DNA of 64,000 bases from Thermosipho japonicus (GTDB lineage: Bacteria; Thermotogota; Thermotogae; Thermotogales; Fervidobacteriaceae). The stretch is from contig NZ_JACHEX010000002.1 of the NCBI RefSeq assembly GCF_014201655.1, positions 186,001 through 250,000 of the forward strand, read 5' to 3'. The notes under the pieces are model-generated. The model saw only the letters and a list, made by a program, of their open reading frames with translations, had not been told where the DNA came from and did not search any database. A program made the position numbers and the translations under genes. Every line of letters begins with the position of its first letter. Positions within the stretch are counted from its first letter, which is position 1. Positions 56,253 to 59,663 of the stretch are shown here, one piece after another.

Positions 56253-56285
56253 AGCCCCCATTTAATGGGGGCTTTTAATTTATTT
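56253..56285 (+). terminator. Terminator after the cold-shock gene
   Basis: AGCCCCCA / TGGGGGCT (56253-56260 with 56266-56273), loop of five, then TTTAATTTATTTT. Runs into the convergent fmdB-like gene. Confidence 0.9.
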
Positions 56286-56495
56286 TGAAGAACTATCACT
56301 TGAAGAAGTTGAAGAAGATTTTCTACTATCTGTAATATAAAAACCACTGCCTTTAAAAACTATACCAACTCTTCCAATTGCTCTTTCCATTTTTGAACCA
56401 CAAACATCACAGGTGATATCAGGATTATCGTTAATAGAATGAAGTTCTACTTTTTCGTGACCACAACTCTTACATACATACCTATACATTGGCAT
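56280..56495 (-). CDS. FmdB-family zinc ribbon protein
   Basis: 71 residues: MPMYRYVCKSCGHEKVE, a second CDVCG pair and a Ser-rich tail, as in the CxxC-CxxC-SSSS family of putative regulators. Four Cys should bind one zinc. Function unknown. AGGAGGTGAG before the ATG. Confidence 0.9.
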   Translation of the reverse strand: MPMYRYVCKSCGHEKVELHSINDNPDITCDVCGSKMERAIGRVGIVFKGSGFYITDSRKSSSTSSSDSSSK

Positions 56496-56676: not shown

Positions 56677-57609
56677 ATGCTCTATGTATTCGTTGGTTCT
56701 TTTATTCTGACACTTATTTTAATACCTTTTTTGAGAAAAATAGCTTTTAAATTTGGTATAGTTGACAAACCAGATAACAAACTTAAAAACCACGAGAAAT
56801 CAACTCCTTATTTAGGTGGTGCAGCGTTTGTTTTCTCATTTCTGATTTTTACGCCATTTAGCCTATTTAGAAAACTGTATATTGTAGTTCTTAGTTTAAT
56901 GGGACTTTATGACGATCTAAAATCAATAAACCCTTGGTTAAGATTAACTATAGAATTTATAATAGGATTTCTTGTATCTACAAGATTTTTAACAAATCCT
57001 ATTGAATTAATTATTGCCACAATTTTTTACGCTTTTTTGATTAACTCTGTAAATATGATGGATGGAATGGATGGAGTTTGTGCAATAACTTCAACCATAG
57101 CTGCATTTGGACTTATATGGACCGTCACATTTCCAAATGATAAATATTATTTAATATCACTTATTGGATCATTACTTGCTTACCTTTTATTCAACTTTCC
57201 ACCTGCAAAAATTTTCATGGGTGATATGGGAAGTTACACAATCGGAGCAATTTTAGGAGTTTCCGTTATTTCATCTTTTTCCAAGAGTTTATCACACACT
57301 ATAGCAGCTTTAATAATTTTAAGTCCTTTTTTCCTGGACACATTTACAAGTATGACTAGAAGAGTTCTTGCTGGAAAATCACCTTTTGAAGGTGACAGAG
57401 ATCACATTTATGATAAACTTTACAAAAGATTAAAAGATAAAAGAAAAACGTTTTTCACAATGGCTTTGATAAGTTCTATTTTTTGTCTACTAGGTATTTT
57501 ATACATAAAATACGATAAACTTTCACTTTTTCTTACAGGATTTATGCTGACTATTTTAACAATTAAACTGTCTCTTTTAAAATATGATAATAAAGAGTTT
57601 GAAAACTAA
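56677..57609 (+). CDS. WecA/TagO/MraY-type polyprenyl-phosphate sugar-phosphate transferase
   Basis: 310 residues, about ten membrane helices. All catalytic motifs are visible: DKPDNKLKNH near 30, Asp79-Asp80 (GLYDDLKS), NMMDGMDG (126-133), FMGD (Asp183) and GDRDHIYDK (240-247). It should transfer a HexNAc-1-phosphate (or similar) to undecaprenyl phosphate, starting an envelope polymer. It is not likely the cell-wall MraY, judged by motif details. First of a four-gene cluster. Confidence 0.88.
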   Translation: MLYVFVGSFILTLILIPFLRKIAFKFGIVDKPDNKLKNHEKSTPYLGGAAFVFSFLIFTPFSLFRKLYIVVLSLMGLYDDLKSINPWLRLTIEFIIGFLVSTRFLTNPIELIIATIFYAFLINSVNMMDGMDGVCAITSTIAAFGLIWTVTFPNDKYYLISLIGSLLAYLLFNFPPAKIFMGDMGSYTIGAILGVSVISSFSKSLSHTIAALIILSPFFLDTFTSMTRRVLAGKSPFEGDRDHIYDKLYKRLKDKRKTFFTMALISSIFCLLGILYIKYDKLSLFLTGFMLTILTIKLSLLKYDNKEFEN

Positions 57610-57627
57610 AAAGAAAGGGTGTTCTAT

Positions 57628-58218
57628 TTGTCATTAAAAAATAAAAATCTTTTGATAATGGTATTGGCAGTTGCTCTATCAATAATTACATATTTCTTAT
57701 TCAGAGAAATGTATTATTCTAATTCCGACTTTCCCTATTCCCAAGAAATTCTTGCCGCTCTTATAGGAACCGTCATAACTATACTAATTACATCACTTCT
57801 TTTAAACAAACAAACTGAAGTAGAAATGCTTAAAGAAGAAAATTTAAAAATTCTTGAATTAAAAGCAAGCATTTATAATGAGTTATTTAGCTATTTAGAA
57901 AAAGTGTTTTTAAAGCAAGAGGTGACAAAAAGTGATATTATAAAGCTCAAACTCATAAACCAAAAGCTTTCAACAATAGCATCTATTGATGTTTTAAAAA
58001 TATTTGAAAAATTTATTGAAGAATTTAACCTCGCTACCAAAGATAAAAAGATTTTAGGTGACGACATTGATGATTTGCTTGAAATATTATCATCGCTTTC
58101 CAATGCTATCAGATACGATTTACTTGAAGGAAAACACGTTGAAAAAGCATCAGAAAAATCGGAAATTTTCAACCAAATTTTAAAGAATACGGAAAAATTA
58201 GAAAAAAACGAAGTATAG
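57628..58218 (+). CDS. Two-TM coiled-coil protein of unknown function
   Basis: 196 residues from a TTG at 57628, six bases after AAAGGGTG. Two membrane helices (about 8-24 and 43-60), then a long cytoplasmic helical part (TEVEMLKEENLKILELKASI, then LKLINQKLSTIASIDVLKIF). The LLNKQTEVE junction recalls a widespread bacterial family of unknown function. It lies between the active transferase and its dead paralogue. Confidence 0.65.
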   Translation: MSLKNKNLLIMVLAVALSIITYFLFREMYYSNSDFPYSQEILAALIGTVITILITSLLLNKQTEVEMLKEENLKILELKASIYNELFSYLEKVFLKQEVTKSDIIKLKLINQKLSTIASIDVLKIFEKFIEEFNLATKDKKILGDDIDDLLEILSSLSNAIRYDLLEGKHVEKASEKSEIFNQILKNTEKLEKNEV

Positions 58219-58227
58219 GAGGAAAAA

Positions 58228-59130
58228 ATGCTCTGGTCTTTTATTCTTTCGTTTTTATTATCACTTATATCACTTCCTATAATAAGAAAAATATCTATTA
58301 AATACAATATTATTGATAAAAAAAGTTCCATACCATATTTTGATGGATTATCTATTATTTTTTCACTATTACTTTGTACACCGTTTAATATTTTTCAAAA
58401 ATTTTATATTATTATATTTGGATTTTTAGGTATTTACCTTGACTTAAAAACAATAAATTATTTAATAAAGCTTTTAATAGAAGCATTATTAGGGTACCTT
58501 GCAACAAGTCAATATTTATCAAATCCAGTTGATTTAATAATAGCTATTTTGTTCTTTATATTTATAGTTAACTCAATACAAAATAAAGAGGAAAAAAGAA
58601 AGCCTCTTTCTATTGTATTTTTAATCTCCTCACTTTTTTTAGTTTTAACTATCTCAGTTCCATTCAATAAATACTTTCTACTTTCCATTTCTGGCTCTTT
58701 AATCGCGTATGTAGTTTATAATTTCTCAATAAGGAAAGTTTTCCTAGGAAATACTGGGAAGTATGCTATTGGAAGTATTTTTGGAATTTCAGTAATTTCT
58801 TCCCTTTCAAAAGGATATATATACTTTTTTGCTTCTATCATAGTTCTTTTACCATATTTATTAGATACAACTGTGGTTATGTTTAGAAAAATAATCTACA
58901 AAAAGCACTTGGTAGAAGATGACAAAAACAATATCTTTGATAAAGTGTTTAAAAAGGTAAAAGATAGGAGAAAAGCTGAATTTCTTTTTCTAATAATATA
59001 TTTGATCTTTTCACTAAATGGATTTTATTTCCTCTATTATCCATATATTTCTTTAGTTATTTCTGTTTTATTTTCAATTTTTATAATATACAAATTAGAA
59101 CTTTTTAAATATGACGGTGATAATAAATGA
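58228..59130 (+). CDS. Catalytically dead paralogue of the sugar-phosphate transferase
   Basis: 300 residues that align end to end with the protein of 56677-57609 (ISLPIIRK, TPFNIFQKFYII, SGSLIAYVVYNF, FGISVISSLSK, FKKVKDRRK). Every catalytic motif is lost: YDD reads YLD (71-72), NMMDGMDG is replaced by IQNKEEKR, FMGD reads FLGN (Asn175), and DRDH reads DKNN. The first cytoplasmic loop is six residues shorter. The frame is intact and the topology kept, so it is a pseudoenzyme, not a decayed gene. Overlaps the vanZ-like gene by ATGA. Confidence 0.85.
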   Translation: MLWSFILSFLLSLISLPIIRKISIKYNIIDKKSSIPYFDGLSIIFSLLLCTPFNIFQKFYIIIFGFLGIYLDLKTINYLIKLLIEALLGYLATSQYLSNPVDLIIAILFFIFIVNSIQNKEEKRKPLSIVFLISSLFLVLTISVPFNKYFLLSISGSLIAYVVYNFSIRKVFLGNTGKYAIGSIFGISVISSLSKGYIYFFASIIVLLPYLLDTTVVMFRKIIYKKHLVEDDKNNIFDKVFKKVKDRRKAEFLFLIIYLIFSLNGFYFLYYPYISLVISVLFSIFIIYKLELFKYDGDNK

Positions 59131-59663
59131 AGAAAAAAGCAATCTTTATTTTCATAATAATCATACTTTGGATCTTACTAATATTTTATTTTTCCTCACG
59201 TAATCCTCTTTATTCATCACAACAATCATCTTTTGTCACTAGGGTATTAAGAAAAATAGACCAGATAATAGACTTTTCAGATACCACGTTGTTTAAAAAG
59301 ATGGAAATATTTTTAAAGAAGCTATGGTTTAAAACCCAATACGTTCCTGCGGAAATGTTAGTAAGAAAAACCGCACATTTTGGCCTATATTTTATACTAG
59401 GCTTTTTTAGCTTTTTTGGTTTTCATTTGCTTATTAAAAAATTTTTTTCGATTCTACTTGCTATAACCTTCCCAAATCTTATAGCAGTTTTAGATGAATA
59501 TACCCAGCAGTATTACAATCGTGGTTCCTCATTAAACGATGTAATTATTGACCTATCAGGCATTATATTTGGTGTTACTTTTGCAGTTATTGTATATTAT
59601 ACTTTTAAATTAATAAGGAAAATTTTTAAGAAAAAAGGAAATTCTGAAAATTTACAAAACTAA
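59127..59663 (+). CDS. VanZ-family membrane protein
   Basis: 178 residues, four membrane helices. VanZ landmarks: RKTAHFGLYFILG (about 85-97), LDEYTQQYYNRGSSLNDVIID. Role of VanZ proteins is unclear; some give teicoplanin tolerance. Last gene of the envelope cluster. Confidence 0.88.
   Translation: MKKKAIFIFIIIILWILLIFYFSSRNPLYSSQQSSFVTRVLRKIDQIIDFSDTTLFKKMEIFLKKLWFKTQYVPAEMLVRKTAHFGLYFILGFFSFFGFHLLIKKFFSILLAITFPNLIAVLDEYTQQYYNRGSSLNDVIIDLSGIIFGVTFAVIVYYTFKLIRKIFKKKGNSENLQN

Follow-up and report, generated by a model that had tools for sequence, protein, structure and literature searches.

The third gene of a four-gene cluster in Thermosipho japonicus encodes P0002, a full-length membrane protein of the WecA/MraY type that has lost its active site and is under purifying selection. 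P0002 probably has a function at the protein level other than polyprenyl-phosphate HexNAc-1-phosphate transferase (PNPT) catalysis. Our best explanation as a whole, to which we give a probability of roughly 0.4, is that it is a displaced resident enzyme that kept its scaffold and became a non-catalytic partner to the active transferase encoded in the same cluster. Dead PNPT copies recur in Fervidobacteriaceae, and this recurrence is a more interesting result than the original observation at the locus.

Organization of the cluster

In the window (the whole stretch of 64,000 nucleotides that was analysed), positions 56677-59663 hold four intact open reading frames, all on the plus strand, in the order P0001, P0003, P0002 and P0004. 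The features of the region are as follows.

56253..56273, plus strand: terminator-like hairpin (consensus scan), 3' of the upstream cold-shock gene
56677..57609, plus strand: P0001, active WecA-type PNPT
57619..58218, plus strand: P0003, 199 residues, GTG start, two N-terminal hydrophobic helices
58228..59130, plus strand: P0002, full-length PNPT pseudoenzyme with a shortened loop A
59127..59663, plus strand: P0004, VanZ-family protein

From 5' to 3', the genes are separated by 9 bases, by 9 bases, and by an ATGA overlap of the P0002 stop with the vanZ start. Since a terminator-like hairpin lies upstream and the same consensus scan found none inside the cluster, the four genes are likely to form one transcript. 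A small divergent open reading frame (56280-56495 of the window, minus strand), zinc-ribbon-like and FmdB-like by eye, lies between the cold-shock gene and the cluster.

Four genes of the source genome (G000) belong to PF00953: mraY, a WecA-like gene directly behind it, P0001 and P0002. The WecA-like gene behind mraY (L001:2174-3019, plus strand) has FMGE for FMGD at the position expected to provide a Mg2+ ligand, whereas the WecA-like gene next to mraY in Fervidobacterium relatives has FMGD.

P0001 is an intact member of the WecA/TagO-type PNPTs (PF00953; TIGR02380 is E. coli WecA): it matches the Pfam profile Glycos_transf_4 (PF00953) with 91.8 bits, and its motifs LYDD, NMMDGMDG, FMGD and DRDHIYD are all present and invariant among the active members of the family. 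P0001 and P0002 are 39% identical over 288 columns (E 4e-69), far beyond chance. P0004 matches PF04892 (E 1e-12) and NF037970 (above cut-off), and its sequences RKTAH and DVIID fit, by eye, the published VanZ-2 motifs RKxxH and DxxxD (PMC12419801). The original prediction of two homologous membrane proteins followed by VanZ was therefore correct.

The remainder of P0003 is helical and presumably cytoplasmic. Two transmembrane segments, as originally predicted, are plausible for this protein, whereas the predicted coiled coil did not emerge from its structure model, which is of low confidence (pLDDT 58; two long helices at the N-terminus plus several shorter) and too weak to use. Searches gave no significant Pfam or NCBIfam match, no match in PADLOC and no plasmid match.

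Loss of the active site of P0002

P0002 and its orthologue from the sister species (G001) were aligned with 18 active members of the family. LYDD has become IYLD in P0002, with the first Asp gone and the second retained; the G001 orthologue is likewise without the first Asp. In both species, loop C (NxxDGxDG) has changed from NMMDGMDG to QNKEEKRK, FMGD has become FLGN with loss of the Mg2+-ligand Asp, and loop E (DRxH) has changed from DRDH to DKNN with loss of the Arg and the His. These alignments bear out the earlier claim that all four catalytic motifs are lost; its reading of loop C (IQNKEEKR) was shifted by one residue, and it had missed the deletion of most of KPDxxLKxHEK in loop A. The G001 orthologue carries an additional in-frame deletion of 7 residues. 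Loops C and D correspond to MraY motifs in a profile match to solved MraY. In MraY, the Mg2+ ligand and the residues that bind the nucleotide lie in these two loops. The loss of the P0002 catalytic residues is well supported.

Many structural residues in or beside the membrane helices are kept (for example P17, P44, Y45, G48, P60, K66, G76, G164, N173, F174, G182, G185, Y187, G190, S199 and R256). Of the conserved columns, P0002 retains 2 of 11 catalytic ones versus 31 of 70 others; an excess of loss at catalytic columns is thus a trend only (Fisher p 0.09), many non-catalytic conserved columns having changed as well. P0002 scores 23.7 bits against Glycos_transf_4, below the cut-off of 27; it has no NCBIfam match, and its match to DUF7649 is under the cut-off of that family. 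P0002 therefore shares with WecA/TagO-type PNPTs full-length homology and the same predicted membrane fold, and differs from them in being without the defining catalytic residues and below the PF00953 cut-off.

An AlphaFold2 model of P0002, built on a 38-sequence alignment, has a pLDDT of 91 and a pTM of 0.91. Foldseek matched it over the full length to MraY (E down to 6e-7) and DPAGT1, both solved PNPT structures, with TM-scores to the query of 0.66-0.74; the model differs from them in its 14-17% identity and in having no active site. As the alignment includes active relatives, the model indicates that the P0002 sequence is compatible with the MraY/DPAGT1 fold and is no proof of it. The intact open reading frame and this predicted fold agree with the full-length protein originally described.

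P0002 might still catalyse the transfer through an atypical active site, given its intact predicted fold and the retention of the second DD Asp. We consider this very improbable: the expected Mg2+ ligand (the Asp of FMGD), the loop-C motif and the loop-E His were lost together, and such loops are found in no other PNPT of the set.

Selection on P0002

The P0002 genes of G000 and G001 are 91% identical, with a dN/dS of 0.276 (2dlnL 18.2 against neutrality) for this one species pair. A neutral simulation at the same divergence predicted about 5 stop codons and 84 replacements, versus 0 and 26 observed, and gave a probability of 0.007 for the complete lack of stops. A neutral pseudogene is incompatible with the dN/dS and with the simulation, and purifying selection on the P0002 protein is well supported, in one species pair; the ratio of silent to replacement changes, proposed as a check, thus came out in favour of a retained protein.

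Between the same two species, dN/dS is 0.076 for P0001, 0.14 for P0003 (partial gene), 0.23 for VanZ and 0.03-0.09 for five flanking genes. The constraint on P0002 is real yet relaxed compared with the active copy, selection being about four times weaker than on P0001.

A dN/dS about 3.6-fold that of P0001, the additional deletion in G001 and the ATGA overlap with vanZ would all suit a displaced remnant that decays slowly, with selection relaxed and the frame preserved mainly by the overlap of its stop with the vanZ start, translation through P0002 being needed for VanZ. Such coupling constrains the frame and not the amino acids, yet only 26 replacements are seen where 84 are expected under neutrality, and dN/dS is significantly below 1. 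Slow decay is, on balance, an unlikely account of P0002.

Distribution and gene order in relatives

The source genome belongs to the Thermosipho genus group g1 (four species including G000 to G003). A second Thermosipho-group genus, g4, comprises four species (G010, G012, G014 and G006), and g3 is Fervidobacterium (including G011 and G018). Among 103 Thermotogota genomes, an orthologue of P0002 was found beyond G000 only in G001, with an intact frame; none was found in the two other species of the genus, G002 and G003, which have the active enzyme and VanZ without P0002. Maintenance in close relatives thus applies to the closest one and not to these two, whose lack of P0002 would suit a decaying remnant. 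A search of a genome collection with P0002 gave no matches; with the active copies, matches were mostly to distant phyla.

The four-gene order was sought in relatives, as originally proposed. In G001 the P0003 gene straddles a contig break, and we infer the order from two contig ends that were not read through; no other of the 103 genomes contains a P0002 orthologue. P0003 occurs in G000, G001 and three g4 genomes (5 of 103 Thermotogota); these g4 genomes have the order PNPT-VanZ-P0003. P0003 represents an orphan family 80-86% identical between genera, better conserved than the accompanying transferase. Its recent transfer is ruled out, as synonymous sites are saturated between genera. VanZ is found as one copy in nearly all related genomes.

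In G002, G003 and most g4 genomes, PNPT-VanZ lies downstream of a 2-oxoacid oxidoreductase operon. The four-gene cluster has changed place, since neither PNPT nor VanZ is found behind this operon in G000 and G001, and relatives have other genes, not the cluster, upstream of ribF. In related genera (L045:3641-9843, plus strand), a PNPT gene lies between a gene for a protein of about 700 residues with no family match and one for a Wzy_C protein of about 1050 residues; the former looks worth a study of its own.

Origin of P0002

The active gene of G000 is 80% identical to that of G010 (g4) and 66% to that of G003, of its own genus, whereas ribF of G000 shows the reverse trend (69% and 75%, respectively). 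Rejection of genus monophyly for the active gene is borderline (p 0.050 and 0.046). From these comparisons the active copy looks horizontally acquired.

P0002 groups with P0001 in no tree and lies outside a supported clade of P0001 with the G010, G012 and G011 enzymes; its placement rests on a long branch. Constraining P0002 with G002/G003 costs 0.8-2.0 log-likelihood units (p 0.17-0.28), and constraining it with P0001 costs 6.8-8.9 units (p 0.06-0.12, not rejected). Because the active copy looks horizontally acquired and P0002 falls outside the P0001 clade, P0002 is somewhat more likely to be a displaced older resident copy than a fresh duplicate, a conclusion with moderate support. Of the earlier idea that P0002 is a duplicated subunit that was kept, the keeping is upheld by purifying selection, whereas its being a duplicate of its neighbour is doubtful, as no tree joins the two.

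Tandem duplication of a PNPT-VanZ-P0003 unit, in the g4 order, would explain the present gene order by a single duplication followed by loss of the first VanZ and of the second P0003, the second PNPT then having lost its active site. It concerns the origin of P0002, not its role. Trees that join P0002 to P0001 are not rejected (p 0.12 and 0.058), yet they are costlier than those that join it to G002/G003, and P0002 stays outside the P0001/G010/G012/G011 clade. The VanZ tree, which might have served as a witness for the origin, is unresolved and so silent on this point, and the contact of P0002 with VanZ, which matches the PNPT-VanZ pairing in relatives, is predicted by displacement and by duplication alike. 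We regard duplication as possible and the less probable origin.

Dead PNPT copies recur in the family

PF00953 genes were surveyed across the order, including 20 genomes of the family. An extra divergent copy was present in 7 of these 20 (G000, G001, all four g4 species and G011), and in 7 of 7 the active site is dead, with the loop-C Asn, the FMGD Asp and the loop-E His all lost. All genomes with dead copies also have a 'Thermosipho-type' active enzyme. For G016, five PF00953 matches are listed, as the mraY pair appears twice, near both ends of a single contig. The genes outside the G000/G001 pair are as follows.

L047:5160-6017 (minus strand), L064:5457-6347 (plus strand) and open reading frames in L065 and L066 (G010, G012, G014 and G006): second PNPT-like gene of g4, dead, intact, at a separate locus
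L048:5242-6168 (minus strand) and L043:6157-7089 (plus strand): the two PNPTs of G011, a dead native copy in a Wzy_C operon and a foreign, Thermosipho-type active enzyme elsewhere

The g4 dead copies have E-D for DD, keep D-(N/H)-F-D-G in loop C, and have E, K or R for the FMGD Asp. In the G011 dead copy DD is kept, K replaces the loop-C Asn, S replaces the Asp of FMGD, and DRDH is missing. The loop replacements are not conserved among the three dead lineages. In G010, the dead PNPT-like gene adjoins a glycoside hydrolase 57 gene.

In the tree, the g4 dead copies are placed with the G007 active enzyme, the G011 copy with Fervidobacterium enzymes, and P0002 with Thermosipho-type enzymes. AU tests rejected a single origin of P0002 and the g4 copies (p 7e-5) and a single origin of all (p 1.6e-6), and with them one ancient pseudoenzyme common to all lineages. 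Since a single origin is rejected, dead PNPT copies arose at least three times.

G011 is a clear case of a resident PNPT displaced by a foreign relative, because its active enzyme groups with Thermosipho (grouping with Fervidobacterium is rejected, p 2.7e-15) and its dead copy stands in native gene order, adjoining a Wzy_C-type protein as in relatives. The g4 dead copy may instead be an old paralogue. The g4 copies are maintained as well, since all four species have kept them intact despite amino-acid differences of 28-45%; synonymous sites are saturated at this distance, so that dN/dS is qualitative only. Intact in four diverged species and with no VanZ behind them, they are left unexplained by slow decay of a remnant coupled to vanZ. 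The repeated loss suggests that the dead version still has a job.

Discussion

The explanation that we favour starts from a related enzyme, P0001, which would have arrived horizontally, together with P0003, from another Thermosipho lineage and taken over catalysis. The resident copy, P0002, would then have lost its active site and retained its scaffold, that of a WecA/MraY-type membrane protein. In the membrane, it would be a non-catalytic partner of P0001, in a heterodimer or in a complex shared with P0003 and VanZ. PNPT-fold enzymes form dimers (PMC6218659); by joining or competing for the PNPT dimer, P0002 may set the rate of lipid-carrier use and so tune the amount of undecaprenyl phosphate primed with sugar phosphate.

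That P0002 is a partner or modulator of P0001 is a tentative proposal. In its favour, the P0002 gene is tightly clustered with those for P0001, VanZ and the strongly conserved P0003; a function of some kind is further indicated by the two other independent dead lineages, one of them kept in four species. Against it, G002 and G003 manage with no more than the active enzyme and VanZ, the genes for the dead copies of g4 and G011 lie away from the active gene, and P0002 is under weaker selection than P0001.

A proposed role of VanZ proteins is to act on the head groups of polyisoprenoids (PMC12419801), which would fit a cluster concerned with the lipid carrier. P0002 could have a new function as a carrier binder, keeping the undecaprenyl phosphate groove and, without involvement of P0001, holding, buffering or passing on the carrier, with VanZ as a possible recipient. 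The adjoining VanZ gene and the preservation of the predicted fold and of membrane-helix residues while the catalytic loops were lost would suit this function; the lack of conservation of the loop replacements among the three dead lineages speaks against it, and we think it improbable.

No catalytically dead PNPT was found described in open-access papers. EpsZ/EpsW of Myxococcus offers a works-like analogy (PMC12802240): a priming transferase of an unrelated class has a non-catalytic partner which is proposed to favour its dimerization and, through the dimer, controls how glycan assembly begins. This system differs in consisting of a monotopic PGT and a response regulator, of unrelated folds, the partner not being a dead paralogue. 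VanZ-1 with its duplicated inactive domain VanZ-i likewise pairs a live lipid-head-group membrane protein with a dead second copy (PMC12419801), but the fold is unrelated and the domains are fused, whereas P0001 and P0002 are separate genes. Xenologous gene displacement resembles the situation of G011, with a foreign relative alongside a dead native copy; here, however, the displaced copies have not vanished: their reading frames are kept, and where testable they are under selection.

PNPT pseudoenzymes might even be a recurrent functional class in Fervidobacteriaceae, in which a mobile Thermosipho-type enzyme takes over and another PNPT copy of the cell loses its catalytic residues, each time the Asn of loop C, the Asp of FMGD and the His of loop E, and stays as a non-catalytic subunit that docks to or regulates the live enzyme; we hold this generalization to be rather unlikely. 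WecA-type transferases, which initiate the assembly of surface sugars, help to set how the scarce lipid carrier is shared out among the surface glycans, and only a few proteins are known to control them. Should the dead copies prove to be partners, the family would offer three natural experiments, independent of one another, on priming transferases with two subunits and on the way in which a displaced enzyme can turn into a regulator.
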